NCBI GenBank assembly: GCA_025054715.1
Contig: JANWYH010000002.1
Span: 372,001 to 436,000, forward strand
Direction: 5' to 3'
Source of the DNA: Pyrinomonadaceae bacterium
GTDB taxonomy: Bacteria > Acidobacteriota > Blastocatellia > Pyrinomonadales > Pyrinomonadaceae
DNA: 64,000 nt
Shown here: one piece after another, positions 24,208 through 29,049 of the stretch
Layout: every line of letters begins with the position of its first letter
Position numbering within the stretch: the first letter of the stretch is position 1
The notes under the pieces: model-generated
What the model was told of the DNA's origin: nothing
Database searches by the model: none
Seen by the model: the letters and a program-made list of their open reading frames with translations, nothing else
Program-made: the position numbers and the translations under genes

Positions 24208-24951
24208 CTAACCTGCCTTCATGTCGAGATTGTTTGCTCCTGTTTTTGCAACAAGATTAGATGCTCTTAGGAGACTATCAAAAGTGCCTGCATCTGTCCA
24301 CCAACCTTCTAGTTCCGACCAAGTCATCTCGCCCCATTCAATATACCTGTTGTTAACGTCGGTTATCTCTAGCTCTCCTCTATCTGAAGGTTTTAATGTC
24401 TTTATTATGTCAAAGACTCGACTATCGTAAAAATAAATTCCTGTGACAGCATAGTCAGATTTAGGCTTTTTTGGCTTTTCTTCTATTCTGACTATTCTTT
24501 CTCCGTCAAGCTCGGGAACACCAAAGCGCTCGGGATCAGGCACCTTCTTGAGTAAAATTTTTGCGCCTTTTCCTTGCTGCTCATAGTCTTGTTTTGCTTT
24601 GATTATGTTTCCTTCAATTATGTTATCTCCTAAAATTACACAGATTAAATCGTCATCGGCAAAATGTTCGACAAGTCTTAAGGCATCTGCAATTCCGCCT
24701 TCACCTTCTTGGTAAGTGTAATTCAGATGTTTTAATCCAAAATCTTTGCCGTTACCTAAAAGCCTTAAGAAATCGCCAGCTGAATTCCCACCAGTGACTA
24801 TCATTATCTCTTCTATTCCAGCATTTACTAGTGTTTGAATCGGATAGTAAATCATTGGTTTGTTGTAAACTGGCAACAAGTGCTTATTGGTTATTTTCGT
24901 CAAAGGATAAAGCCTCGTTCCTAGTCCTCCAGCTAAAACTACGCCTTTCAT
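24208..24951 (-). CDS. rmlA: Glucose-1-phosphate thymidylyltransferase (short form)
   Basis: A 247-residue nucleotidyltransferase: MKGVVLAGGLGTRLYPLTKITNK signature, then ILGDNI, ERFGVPEL, IEEKPKKPKSDYAVTGIYFYD and a GWWTDAGTFDSL segment. It makes dTDP-glucose from dTTP and Glc-1-P. It lacks the roughly 40-residue C-terminal extension of classical RmlA. The ATG has no SD site, and TAAAAT lies 9 nt upstream, so it may have its own near-leaderless start within the minus-strand cluster. Confidence 0.92.
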   Translation of the reverse strand: MKGVVLAGGLGTRLYPLTKITNKHLLPVYNKPMIYYPIQTLVNAGIEEIMIVTGGNSAGDFLRLLGNGKDFGLKHLNYTYQEGEGGIADALRLVEHFADDDLICVILGDNIIEGNIIKAKQDYEQQGKGAKILLKKVPDPERFGVPELDGERIVRIEEKPKKPKSDYAVTGIYFYDSRVFDIIKTLKPSDRGELEITDVNNRYIEWGEMTWSELEGWWTDAGTFDSLLRASNLVAKTGANNLDMKAG

Positions 24952-24986
24952 AATCGAAAAATTTTAACTAAACTTGCACCTAAAAA

Positions 24987-25307
24987 CTATCTTTCAGGGA
25001 TAGAACCGGAAATTTTTTTGCGAGTCGTCTCTCCAGTTTCAATAACTGGAATACCTTTTGATACTTCACTCGCTGGGCGCGGAATGACGTGAACGCTTAC
25101 CACTTCACCGATTCGTCTTGCTGCTTCAGCGCCTGCTTCAACAGCCGCTTTAACCGCTCCAACTTCACCGCGAACTATGGCAATAACGAGTCCGGCATCT
25201 ATCTTTTCGTAGCCGACAAATCTGACACTTGCTGTTTTTACCATAACATCTGCAGCTTCTATCATCGCCACTAGACCACGGGTTTCTACCATTCCTAATG
25301 CTTCCAT
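24987..25307 (-). CDS. BMC-H microcompartment shell protein (KIDAG pore)
   Basis: A 106-residue single BMC domain (Pfam 00936 type): [10 protein letters not shown] start, [34 protein letters not shown] and HVIPRP. Such proteins form hexamers that tile the shell; the loop at IDAG lines the central pore. It differs from the paralogue at 27343, which has IGAG. It is the last gene of the four-gene BMC operon, 6 bases after the zinc-ribbon gene, and has only a weak SD (GTGAAG), so translational coupling is likely. A 20-residue tail follows the domain. Confidence 0.92.
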
Positions 25308-25313
25308 AGAACT

Positions 25314-25670
25314 TCACTTAATTAAAATCATCAAAAAAAGAGCTAGCAAAGAAATCAAGAGGGAAGCTATTGTGAAAATTAAATATATCCTCTCGCTTGC
25401 GTAAGTCTTAGTAACTTTCTGTAATTTTCGTTCGGGTCCCGAGATTACGAGTCTTGTTGAAGGTTTTGGTATTGGTTTATCTTCTTGCTTTTTATTTTCG
25501 TTACTGTCTTTTTCAAAAGACGGCAAGAACGGAAATTCCTGGAGTTTTGTGGTCTTATTAGGGTTTTCAGAGAAATCATTTCTTGTGCCGCAGTTATGAC
25601 AAAAAAGAGCATTAGGTCTTAACCTCGTGCCGCATTCTTTGCAAATTTCTAGAGCAGTTTTTTGAGACAT
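25314..25670 (-). CDS. Zinc-ribbon protein with C-terminal membrane helix
   Basis: About 118 residues: an N-terminal double CxxC zinc ribbon (CKECGTRLRPNALFCHNCGT, residues 10-29), a charged linker, and a C-terminal hydrophobic helix (about 93-117) that looks like a tail anchor. I do not recognise a characterised homologue. The ATG directly follows the aldehyde dehydrogenase stop (TAAAATG), so it is coupled to it, and BMC-H follows after 6 bases. Its place inside the BMC operon suggests a shell-associated or membrane-tethering role; this is inference. Confidence 0.75.
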   Translation of the reverse strand: MSQKTALEICKECGTRLRPNALFCHNCGTRNDFSENPNKTTKLQEFPFLPSFEKDSNENKKQEDKPIPKPSTRLVISGPERKLQKVTKTYASERIYLIFTIASLLISLLALFLMILIK

Positions 25671-25671
25671 T

Positions 25672-27339
25672 TTAGATTCGAGCAAAAACTTCCTTTTCTT
25701 CGCCTAAGTCTCTCGCAGCAGGCGTTATAATCGTTTTCGAGTGTATGTAGATTTTCTCACCTTTTTCAATTGCGAGCTTGACGTCGCTTTCGCTTACAAA
25801 ATCAACTGCCTTTTGCTTTGCTCCATTCTGCTCTGAGGGCGGTTTTATTTCGTGAATAATTGTCTTAACAGGGCTTTCTGCTGCGACATTAGTAGGTTCT
25901 TCAGCTCTAATTTCAAGCTTTTCAGCAAGGAATTTATCTACTATTTCAGCTATTTTTTCACGGGTTGCCGATTTCGGTTTGATTTGAACTACTTTTGTTA
26001 CGGCTCTCGTTTCAAATGCTATCCGTTTTATGTCAAGCAGGTGAATTGGTGAAATGTTATCGCTTGTTACGTTTCCACCCCAAGAGCCGCAACCTAAAGT
26101 CATCGAAGGTGGAAGATCAGTAGAAAATCCTATTGCGCCGTGAGTTGTTGGTGTGTTGATACAGATTCTTGCTGCTGGCATCTGCTCACCGAATCTGATT
26201 GCTGCTAGTCTATCTCTGGTGTGCATCCCTGCGGTATGCCCCATTCCACCGAATTGCAAAACTTGAAGACATCTTTCGGAGGCTTGCTCTAAGTTATCAA
26301 CAACAAAAAAAGCAAGTGTCGGCGAAAGCTTCTCGATCGACCACGGATAATCTCTTCCGACTCCTCCACAATCAGCTATCAAACATCTCGTTCCGTTAGG
26401 TATTGAGATGCCTGCTAGATTCGCAATGTATTCTGCTGACTTTCCGACAATTTTAGGATTTAGTGTTCTCTGTTCGGTAACTAAAACTTTTGCAACTTGA
26501 TCAGCTTCCAATTCAGTTAGAAAATGTCCTCCTTGGCGCCTGAACTCTTCGCGTACTTCTTTTGCTATAGAAGATTCGACTATGACGGACTGCTCGGAAG
26601 CACAAATCGTTCCATTGTCAAAGCAAGTTCCAGTCAAAATGTCGGCAACTGCTTTTTGAATATCGGCAGTTTTTTCGATATAAACTGGCACGTTACCGGG
26701 ACCGACGCCAAATGCAGGTTTGCCAGATGAATAAGCTGCTCTAACGAGTCCTATACCTCCGGTTGCAAGTATCACGGCTGTCTTTTCATGTTTCATCAAA
26801 GCTTCCGTAGCTTCGATGTTTGGATTTTCAAGGCATTGTATGGCGTCAGGCGGTAAGCCCTCTTTAATCGCAGCTTCTTTCATTACGCGTGCCGTTTCAG
26901 CAATAGAACGAGCAGCCGAAGGATGAGGCGAAAGGACAATTGTGTTTCTGGATTTTATGGCTATTATTATTTTGAATATCGTCGTCGAGGTAGGATTCGT
27001 GGAAGGAATAATTGCCGCAATTACGCCTCTGGGCGATGCAATTTCAATTACGCTTCCTTTGTCTGAAATAACGCCTACAGTTTTTAAATTTTTAAAGTGA
27101 TTCCAAACATCTTCTGCTGCAAAGCGGTTTTTTTCTTTTTTATCTTCTGGTTTGCCAAAGCCAGTTTCTTCATGAGCCATTCGGCCAAGTCTTGTTGATT
27201 CCGCTAGCGCAATTTTAGCCATTGAGTCACAGATGCGGTCAATTTTAGCTTGATCAAACTTGGCTACAATGCTTGAAGCTAGATGAGCAGCTTCGACCGC
27301 GTCATTAACCTCTTTATTGAATGCTTTGGCTTCCGTCAT
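25672..27339 (-). CDS. CoA-acylating aldehyde dehydrogenase with EutQ-like C-terminal module
   Basis: A 555-residue enzyme converting an aldehyde, CoA and NAD+ to acyl-CoA. The dehydrogenase part (1 to about 450) has [30 protein letters not shown], and the catalytic Cys246 in [11 protein letters not shown], as in AdhE-N, EutE and PduP. A variable linker follows, then residues about 506-555 with [13 protein letters not shown] and [12 protein letters not shown], which resemble the N-terminal segment of EutQ. PduP-like enzymes usually carry a short N-terminal encapsulation helix instead. It is flanked by shell genes with gaps of 1 and 3 bases, so it is clearly the cargo enzyme. Confidence 0.92.
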
Positions 27340-27342
27340 TCC

Positions 27343-27744
27343 TTATTCTTTCTTTCTGGACTTGCTTTTATCATTGGTCATTATACTCTCATTTTCAGCT
27401 TCACCTGAACTTAGCTGGCGCATTTCACCTGCCTGAAGAGCTTGTTCATCAGGGCTATATCTGACTGCACCACCCTTGGGTAGGCACTTCTCAACTTCAT
27501 GATGCGGTCGCGGTATGACGTGAACACTTATAAGCTCGCCGACACGCCGCGCCGCTGCTGCACCAGCATCAGTAGCAGCTTTTACAGCTCCTACATCTCC
27601 ACGGACAAAAACCGTCACATAACCTGCACCGATGTATTCTTTTCCGATGAGTTGCACATTCGCCGCTTTTACCATAGCATCTGCTGCTTCGACGGCTCCG
27701 ATAAAACCTTTTGTCTCAACCATTCCAAGTGCTTCAAAAGACAT
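27343..27744 (-). CDS. BMC-H microcompartment shell protein with long C-terminal tail
   Basis: About 133 residues. The first ~95 form a BMC-H domain very like PduA/EutM ([51 protein letters not shown]). A tail of about 38 residues, Gln/Ser/Lys-rich and ending in SKSRKKE, extends beyond it and would lie on one face of the hexamer. The ATG at 27744 was preferred over TTG at 27750 because GAGGGG lies 8 nt before it. First gene of the BMC operon, preceded by a clear promoter. Confidence 0.93.
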
Positions 27745-27785
27745 CTTCAAAGCCCCTCAATGAAAAATTTTCTCTACGTTCGACG

Positions 27786-27814
27786 ATTTTATTACAAAAC
27801 TAGTAAAGACTCAA
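27786..27814 (-). promoter_or_regulatory. Sigma-70-type promoter of the BMC operon
   Basis: On the minus strand TTGAGT (27809-27814), a 17-bp spacer and TAAAAT (27786-27791): 4/6 and 5/6 matches. The transcript would begin near 27779 and have a leader of about 35 nt with the GAGGGG SD site of the first shell gene. Confidence 0.6.
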
Positions 27815-28113
27815 ACTTTACGTTCTCTTACTTCTAGTTTTTTAATTTCAAAGTAACCGGCCAGTGAGGTGAGATTTTTCTTGAACCACTTAAGATTTCT
27901 TAAAGCAATTACGGAAATTGCCCTGTGTAACTTCCAGAGTTTGTTTTCGACTATCTTACTTGTCGCTACATAATCCAGGTAAGACCATTCGGCAGAGTTT
28001 TTAACCAACAAAGTAAAAGTCTGAGCAGTTTTTCTTGGTAGCTGAAGGGAGATAAAAGGTCTTAATAGGCTAGGCTTTTGCCGCACATAATTTTTGATAA
28101 AAAGAAACATCAA
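27811..28113 (-). CDS. Doubtful 100-residue hypothetical protein
   Basis: An open frame of 100 codons, Lys/Arg-rich with some hydrophobic stretches, matching nothing I recognise. Its 3' end overlaps the -35 box of the BMC promoter and its start has no good SD site. It lies in the gap between the BMC operon and the divergent methyltransferase. It may be spurious, or a regulator of the BMC operon; nothing in the sequence supports the latter beyond position. Confidence 0.3.
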   Translation of the reverse strand: MMFLFIKNYVRQKPSLLRPFISLQLPRKTAQTFTLLVKNSAEWSYLDYVATSKIVENKLWKLHRAISVIALRNLKWFKKNLTSLAGYFEIKKLEVRERKV

Positions 28114-28154
28114 TGTTTCTAATGAAATTCTACCTGTTTTGCGGAGGTTTCATG

Positions 28155-28160
28155 TATAAT
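28155..28160 (+). promoter_or_regulatory. TATAAT -10 box 7 nt before the methyltransferase start
   Basis: A perfect TATAAT with the ATG at 28168 seven bases downstream, fitting a leaderless transcript. The same bases are also codons 2-3 of a 20-codon frame starting at 28152 behind a GGAGG, so the assignment is not certain. Confidence 0.45.
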
Positions 28161-28167
28161 CCAACGT

Positions 28168-29049
28168 ATGGAAAACTTTCGTCCCTGTCCTTCTTGTGGA
28201 GCGAAGAATGGTAAGATAAGAGGAGCAAAGAACAATTTTCAAATACGCGAATGTTCAAAGTGTTTAACAATATTTACTGGCCATTTGCCAAGACTTGATG
28301 AGTCTGAAAATTACGATAGCTATTATACGGAAGCGAATTTGAAAGTTCCGGAATTCATCTACAAAAGATTGAGCGATTTGGTTGAAAGTTTTTCTTCATA
28401 TCGGCAAACAAATCGTTGGCTTGATATCGGTTTCGGTGCCGGAGCTTTAATGCAAGTTGCGGCCGAGTTGGGCTGGGATGTTTATGGCATAGAGGTTTCG
28501 AAACCAGCAGTTGAGCAGGCCAAAAATTTAGGTTTCAAAGTTTTTCACGGGGAGTTACATGAGGCAAATTACGAGGACGGCTTTTTTGATGTTGTTACTG
28601 CAAGCGAGATTTTAGAGCACCTTTACGAGCCGCAGAAGTTATTAAATGAAGTCCATCGAGTTTTACGGCCGGGTGGTTTATTTTGGGCGACTACACCGTC
28701 ATCAAGAGGGATTACACCGCGTTTTCTTGGGATTGATTGGACGGTTGTTTCACCTCCTGAACATCTTCAGATTTTTTCCAAAAGGGGAGTGCTTATAATG
28801 TTGAAAAACGCAGGGTTTACGAAAATACGATTGCAAACGCATGGGGTAAATCCATTCGAGATTATCAACTATTTTCAACACTACTTTCTTCTGAAGAAAG
28901 AAAATAACTTTGATCGAGTGATAACTAGCTATCAGATAAATGAGAGGTTAGAAAGTAGCTCAATGAAGAAAGCGGTGAAAAGAGCTTTGAATTATGTTCT
29001 AGACCTTGCGCAAATCGGTGATTCAATTAAAATTTATGCGTGTAAGTAA
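28168..29049 (+). CDS. SAM-dependent methyltransferase with N-terminal zinc finger
   Basis: A 293-residue class I methyltransferase. Residues 6-34 hold a CPSC...CSKC zinc finger. The Rossmann part shows motif I LDIGFGAGALM, an acidic VYGIEVS strand end, DVVTASEILEHL and LRPGGLFWATTP. The layout matches methyltransferases common in glycan and secondary-metabolite clusters (zinc finger plus Methyltransf_11/23). The substrate is unknown. It stands alone between the BMC operon and the HD hydrolase. Confidence 0.85.
   Translation: MENFRPCPSCGAKNGKIRGAKNNFQIRECSKCLTIFTGHLPRLDESENYDSYYTEANLKVPEFIYKRLSDLVESFSSYRQTNRWLDIGFGAGALMQVAAELGWDVYGIEVSKPAVEQAKNLGFKVFHGELHEANYEDGFFDVVTASEILEHLYEPQKLLNEVHRVLRPGGLFWATTPSSRGITPRFLGIDWTVVSPPEHLQIFSKRGVLIMLKNAGFTKIRLQTHGVNPFEIINYFQHYFLLKKENNFDRVITSYQINERLESSSMKKAVKRALNYVLDLAQIGDSIKIYACK

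Follow-up and report, generated by a model that had tools for sequence, protein, structure and literature searches.

A shell-protein operon of a Pyrinomonadaceae bacterium is very probably the satellite locus of an ACI-like metabolosome

RESULTS

Four tightly spaced genes in the window

The window analyzed here is a stretch of 64,000 nucleotides on contig C16 of a Pyrinomonadaceae genome, and it carries on its minus strand an operon in the order BMC-H, aldehyde dehydrogenase, zinc-ribbon protein, and BMC-H, with intergenic gaps of 3, 1, and 6 bases. The first gene (27343 to 27744) encodes a BMC-H shell protein of 133 amino acids, with PF00936 at residues 5 to 80 and a C-terminal extension; it starts at an ATG, with an alternative TTG at 27750. 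It is followed by the gene of a 555-amino-acid CoA-acylating aldehyde dehydrogenase (AldDh; 25672 to 27339), identified by Pfam, NCBIfam, and alignment, by that of a zinc-ribbon protein with a C-terminal hydrophobic helix (25314 to 25670; 118 amino acids from the ATG start used here, with an alternative TTG at 25685), and by a second BMC-H gene (24987 to 25307; 106 amino acids). Each shell protein scores 100.5 bits against the Pfam BMC model, the AldDh 102.5 bits against Aldedh over residues 5 to 267, and the zinc-ribbon protein 30.9 bits against Zn_Ribbon_1 (cut-off, 25). The open reading frames (ORFs) and the Pfam and NCBIfam matches agree with the four genes, order, coordinates, and tight spacing given in the first-pass annotation of this DNA. 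This gene order does not reflect chance, because the same order recurs in relatives.

The AldDh reaches 566.7 bits against the NCBIfam model of acetylating acetaldehyde dehydrogenase (TIGR02518), below its cut-off of 620.1, and the top matches of its family profile among solved structures are acetylating acetaldehyde dehydrogenases (5j78, 666.7 bits). Cys246, which from family knowledge we take to be the catalytic residue, is invariant in all 17 aligned sequences. The zinc-ribbon protein has a single hydrophobic segment, at its extreme C terminus, where hydropathy alone predicts a tail-anchor helix (25320 to 25376, minus strand). The operon had also been ascribed to one promoter; a promoter-like site does lie upstream (27786 to 27814, minus strand), but it is weak and within the range of shuffled sequences, and positions 24800 to 28200 hold 8 such sites versus 5.3 (SD, 1.9) in shuffles.

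Vertex proteins and an aldolase on a second contig

The first-pass annotation had found BMC-P, BMC-T, PduL, and alcohol dehydrogenase missing from the window, which holds, and had left two readings open: a satellite locus with its other parts elsewhere, or a minimal microcompartment with a reduced shell. Of the three PF00936 matches in the genome (2.45 Mb in 23 contigs, 99% complete), two are the window genes and the third lies at C20:77334-77561; the three PF03319 (BMC-P) matches are adjacent and all located at C20:76484-77298. The order of this main locus is Rex, class II aldolase (PF00596, 163 bits), BMC-H, BMC-P, BMC-P, BMC-P, and a protein of 99 residues. With three BMC-P genes, a third BMC-H gene, and the aldolase on contig C20, the satellite reading is borne out. 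The rival reading of a stand-alone shell without vertices, formed by two BMC-H proteins and one tethered enzyme, could draw on the lack of BMC-P and PduL matches in the window and on the lack of a tandem BMC-T in the genome, where PF00936 gives three separate single matches. It is contradicted by the three BMC-P genes and the third BMC-H gene of the same genome, as well as by the joint presence of AldDh and BMC-P in 51 of 60 genomes (see below), and on account of the BMC-P genes we ruled it out as extremely improbable.

The genome-wide search that had been proposed earlier thus located BMC-P, on C20 only, but neither PduL (PF06130) nor a tandem BMC-T in this genome. A single AldDh match was obtained at E ≤ 1e-100. 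The genome has a phosphotransacylase of family PF01515 (Pta/Ptb) at C11:339771, no Fe-ADH alcohol dehydrogenase over the cut-off and one match below it, and a single sugar kinase, of the FGGY type, on C1 and near neither the main nor the satellite locus.

The 99-residue protein that adjoins the BMC-P triplet (L007:16159-16458, on C20) has no Pfam or NCBIfam match; it and its relatives share a conserved C-terminal cysteine motif, C..C..C, that ends in GF. The gene of the Rex redox-sensing repressor lies at L007:18422-19075 (C20), upstream of the microcompartment aldolase.

Co-occurrence of the components in 60 genomes

The comparison covered 60 genomes, namely that of the window, 36 further members of its genus and family, and 23 of its class. 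BMC-P is present in 56 of them, AldDh (E ≤ 1e-100) in 52, and the aldolase (E ≤ 1e-40) in 53; 51 genomes combine BMC-P with AldDh and 48 have all three markers, and PduL (PF06130) has no match in any of the 60, own genome included. At least one of the three markers is missing from 12 genomes, some of which are incomplete (71 to 90%). Five genomes have BMC-P without AldDh (G005, G028, G035, G047, and G059), and two of these, G047 (98% complete) and G059 (94%), keep the aldolase as well; G032 has AldDh without BMC-P. From G046, G050, and G054, three members of one genus of the same class, BMC-P, AldDh, and aldolase are missing together.

Main loci were compared in our own genome and in 21 stretches of relatives, a sample chosen by BMC-P or aldolase matches and not at random. 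In 16 stretches, our own included, aldolase, BMC-H, and BMC-P share a strand, in some cases with an intervening small ORF; 8 of these stretches (again counting our own) belong to the family of the window and 8 to other families. The aldolase (L146) and shell genes (L069) of G022 are on separate contigs, and four stretches (L074 to L077) have BMC-P genes without aldolase. The Rex gene precedes that of the aldolase on the same strand, with 0 to 2 ORFs between, in eight of nine genomes of the family, the exception being G001, of the same genus as the window, and in two of eight genomes of other families. The 99-residue protein adjoins the BMC-P genes in all nine genomes of the family and is unmatched in the eight others.

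Two forms of the satellite locus

Among 20 AldDh loci from named genomes, 17 are acidobacterial (their titles give Acidobacteria, Pyrinomonadaceae, Chloracidobacterium, Aridibacter, and Blastocatellia, and one "gp4"), two are from Neobacillus, and one (L025) is from another bacterium. In the 18 non-Neobacillus loci, a BMC-H gene lies upstream of AldDh in 16 (L022 and L025 begin inside AldDh), a zinc-ribbon gene lies downstream in 16 (L013 ends too soon, and L020 has a BMC-P gene instead), and a second BMC-H gene follows in 13. No second BMC-H was found within 2.2 kb in L012 and L021; L013 and L017 are cut by the locus end, and L020 has BMC-P in its place. Exactly one hydrophobic segment, at the extreme C terminus, is present in 15 of the 16 zinc-ribbon proteins, the remaining one (L017) being cut by the locus end. 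A second set, comprising the best 30 of 53 AldDh matches in the 60 genomes, own included, and apparently drawn in part from the same genomes as the first, revealed two forms: the zinc-ribbon gene is present in 13 loci (truncated where the locus ends in L087 and L089), and in 13 there is BMC-P downstream of AldDh and no zinc ribbon within ∼1 kb. Four loci have neither (L092 to L094 and L100, the last cut at the AldDh end).

Six loci (L011, L012, L014, L022, L023, and L025) contain an extra gene of ∼213 to 229 codons between AldDh and the zinc-ribbon gene; that of L012, the only one scanned, encodes a VWA domain. In two others, the zinc-ribbon gene is separated from the second BMC-H by a gene for a protein with a hydrophobic N terminus (L028:7225-7722, Ser/Asp-rich, and L024:6671-7255).

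One satellite form conserves the zinc-ribbon protein, whereas none is seen in the ∼1-kb stretches of the other, so that it looks accessory; with its C-terminal helix, it may link the microcompartment to the membrane. Its recurrence behind AldDh in 16 of 18 loci, with the C-terminal helix in 15, would also fit a satellite that forms a second assembly, separate from the main shell and docked at the inner membrane by this protein. Against such a separate assembly stand the 13 of the best 30 AldDh loci with BMC-P and no nearby zinc ribbon, locus L090, in which the zinc ribbon occurs together with a BMC-P gene directly behind AldDh, and the co-occurrence of AldDh and BMC-P, which points to one common shell; we therefore regard it as very improbable. 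It is tempting to speculate, although we think it rather unlikely, that in one acidobacterial branch the metabolosome is docked at the inner membrane through binding of the tail-anchored zinc-ribbon protein, encoded immediately after AldDh and ahead of a shell protein, to the shell or to the AldDh tail, and that in the sister satellite a fourth vertex protein has taken the place of both the anchor and the second BMC-H.

A conserved C-terminal module of the AldDh

Past its catalytic domain, the AldDh has a linker that is variable but contains a conserved helix (residues 460 to 474; 25918 to 25962, minus strand), a candidate encapsulation peptide in a low-confidence model, and then a strongly conserved stretch formed by the last 45 residues (511 to 555; 25675 to 25809, minus strand). 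AlphaFold2, run with 17 sequences, folds the tail into a strand-helix-strand-helix-strand unit with a block pLDDT of 68 to 86, compared with ∼57 for the linker helix and a mean of 68.8 for the whole AldDh model, which is mediocre. The tail weakly matches the C terminus of NCBIfam TIGR02536 (E, 0.0005 to 0.0025) and, with one of three stretches, the N terminus of EutT (NCBIfam; E, 0.066). A tail profile built from 15 AldDh sequences scores 12.2 bits with Escherichia coli EutT and 10.3 bits with EutQ, weak values, aligned at the N termini of both, that nevertheless exceed those of all 1,000 shuffles of the two proteins (best, 6.5) and of nine other real proteins.

Against 7,513 ORFs from the fetched loci and the window, the tail profile found 49 at ≥45 bits, each of them in a locus of this AldDh; they represent 42 distinct sequences, with the window gene counted three times and 15 of the sequences having built the profile. 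The module is present in both satellite forms, and in the 50 loci L009 to L028 and L078 to L107 it is missing only from the two Neobacillus loci and from the cut locus L100. One PF02502 isomerase (RpiB-type, 166.4 bits; L148:3984-4796) carries the AldDh-tail module in front and ranks next (23.3 bits); its gene is on the opposite strand, ∼1.5 kb away from BMC-P in a main locus of the order aldolase-BMC-H-BMC-P. Then come a small protein encoded in a Neobacillus BMC locus (13.6 bits), EutT (12.3), and EutQ (10.1), and the first match outside such systems (7.4 bits) ranks above a second Neobacillus protein (6.7); both Neobacillus proteins match the C termini of TIGR02536 and PduM. Pfam and PDB sequence searches with the tail returned SH3 matches at chance level only.

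The module thus bears a weak resemblance to the N-terminal ∼40 residues of the EUT metabolosome proteins EutT and EutQ. In the part of the EutQ study available to us (PMC12487888), EutQ is described as a shell-cargo linker that binds the shell through H1/H2, the stretch in question, and cargo through H3/H4. Here, by contrast, the module is fused to the C terminus of the AldDh. The scores, weak but consistent, suggest that the AldDh probably carries its own candidate shell-binding piece.

Scans for encapsulation peptides and Rex operators

Hydrophobic moments did not single out any of five candidate stretches, the AldDh linker helix among them, as an encapsulation peptide. The lowest count, 87 of 2,000 shuffles, belongs to the AldDh N-terminal helix; the C-terminal stretch of the aldolase is conserved in eight aligned aldolases, and its hydrophobic moment was reached by 504 of 2,000 shuffles. 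For Rex operators, we scanned with a consensus taken from general knowledge and allowed four mismatches. None was found upstream of the window operon, while sites occur in 5 of 16 satellite upstream regions of relatives (in L015 with a single mismatch) and in 3 of 10 main-locus upstream regions. With no consistent pattern of operator sites, we discarded regulation of the satellite by the main-locus Rex.

DISCUSSION

The catalogue of microcompartment loci by Sutter et al. (2021; PMC8217296), cited here and below from the part available to us, describes an ACI type that is exclusive to Acidobacteria, mainly subdivisions 4 and 6. Its main locus combines a PF00596 class II aldolase, a BMC-P triplet, and at least one BMC-H, with the AldDh on a satellite locus, an encapsulation peptide at the aldolase C terminus, and a hydroxyacid dehydrogenase (PF00389/PF02826) listed for the locus; the AldDh is phylogenetically close to MIC3, and the shell proteins fall into ACI clades. 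The present system shares the phylum, the aldolase, the BMC-P triplet, at least one BMC-H, and the satellite AldDh, which lies on C16 with the main locus on C20 in an assembly of 23 contigs. More generally, it has the BMC-H and BMC-P shell genes and the PF00171 AldDh of catabolic metabolosomes, and the PduL-type phosphotransacylase of a complete core is found in 0 of 60 genomes.

The catalogue comparison suggested by the first-pass annotation therefore returns most features of the ACI type, but not the hydroxyacid dehydrogenase, which was found near neither the main nor the satellite locus and was accordingly dropped as an NADH sink within the locus. Contig C20 has no PF02826 match; the single strong match in the genome, at C16:164196, reads as a SerA-like protein with an ACT-type tail. 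Among the ORFs of the satellite and main loci retrieved from relatives, none gave a SerA-type match, and among the matches listed for the 60 genomes, many of them fragmented assemblies, the PF02826 match nearest to an aldolase or AldDh is ∼27 kb away (G058). For this reason we call the system ACI-like and not a proven ACI member. A complete described locus elsewhere in the genome, the finding named in advance as speaking against a novel reduced system, exists in part: vertex genes and a core aldolase are there, but PduL and the listed hydroxyacid dehydrogenase are not.

It could be argued that the parts form one shell of another catalogued type, such as MIC or FRAG, given that neither a hydroxyacid dehydrogenase nor a PTAC was found and that shell genes lie at two sites; FRAG types, too, combine scattered shell genes with a BMC-P triplet (PMC8217296, in part). 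Yet the system agrees with ACI, which the same source gives as exclusive to Acidobacteria, in its phylum, aldolase, BMC-P triplet, and satellite AldDh, and we consider another type improbable. In the sections of that catalogue on other types, PVM and GRM5 microcompartments likewise have a PF00596 aldolase; the present system differs in lacking PduL in 60 of 60 genomes of its class. SPU loci share the PF02502 isomerase, which here lies near the main locus of one relative only, and the present aldolase is PF00596, not PF01791. The window operon is thus part of a largely known acidobacterial kind of microcompartment and not a minimal microcompartment. In the ACI description of PMC8217296, supplement aside, we found no mention of the zinc-ribbon gene or of the AldDh C-terminal module, and among the matches listed for the microcompartment literature on Acidobacteria, no paper title refers to this operon, to the zinc-ribbon protein, or to the AldDh tail.

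Taken together, the observed gene content, conservation, two-locus split, co-occurrence, and weak module resemblance are best explained if the window operon serves as the satellite locus of an ACI-like metabolosome, its products forming one closed shell with the parts encoded on C20, which we hold to be very probable. For assembly, substrate, direction of flux, and tethering, we infer the following scheme. The two satellite BMC-H proteins and the AldDh would join the C20 BMC-H, the three BMC-P proteins, and the class II aldolase in one closed shell, inside which the aldolase would cleave a sugar- or keto-acid-phosphate. The highest NCBIfam score of the aldolase is for 3-oxo-tetronate 4-phosphate decarboxylase (147 bits, below the cut-off of 250), and it scores lower against L-fuculose-phosphate aldolases. 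The AldDh, probably held at the inner shell face by its EutT/EutQ-like C-terminal module, would then convert the released aldehyde, which may be lactaldehyde- or glycolaldehyde-like, to acyl-CoA and NADH. Because no PduL is encoded, the acyl-CoA would leave the shell; with neither PduL nor a hydroxyacid dehydrogenase found in the loci and no Fe-ADH over the cut-off, acyl-CoA and reducing power would either exit or be recycled by further proteins.

The window operon, then, provides no evidence for a vertex-less shell. To an uncharacterized acidobacterial organelle, the operon adds two features: an EutT/EutQ-like AldDh tail, which is a candidate for shell binding, and a conserved zinc-ribbon protein whose C-terminal helix makes it a candidate membrane link.
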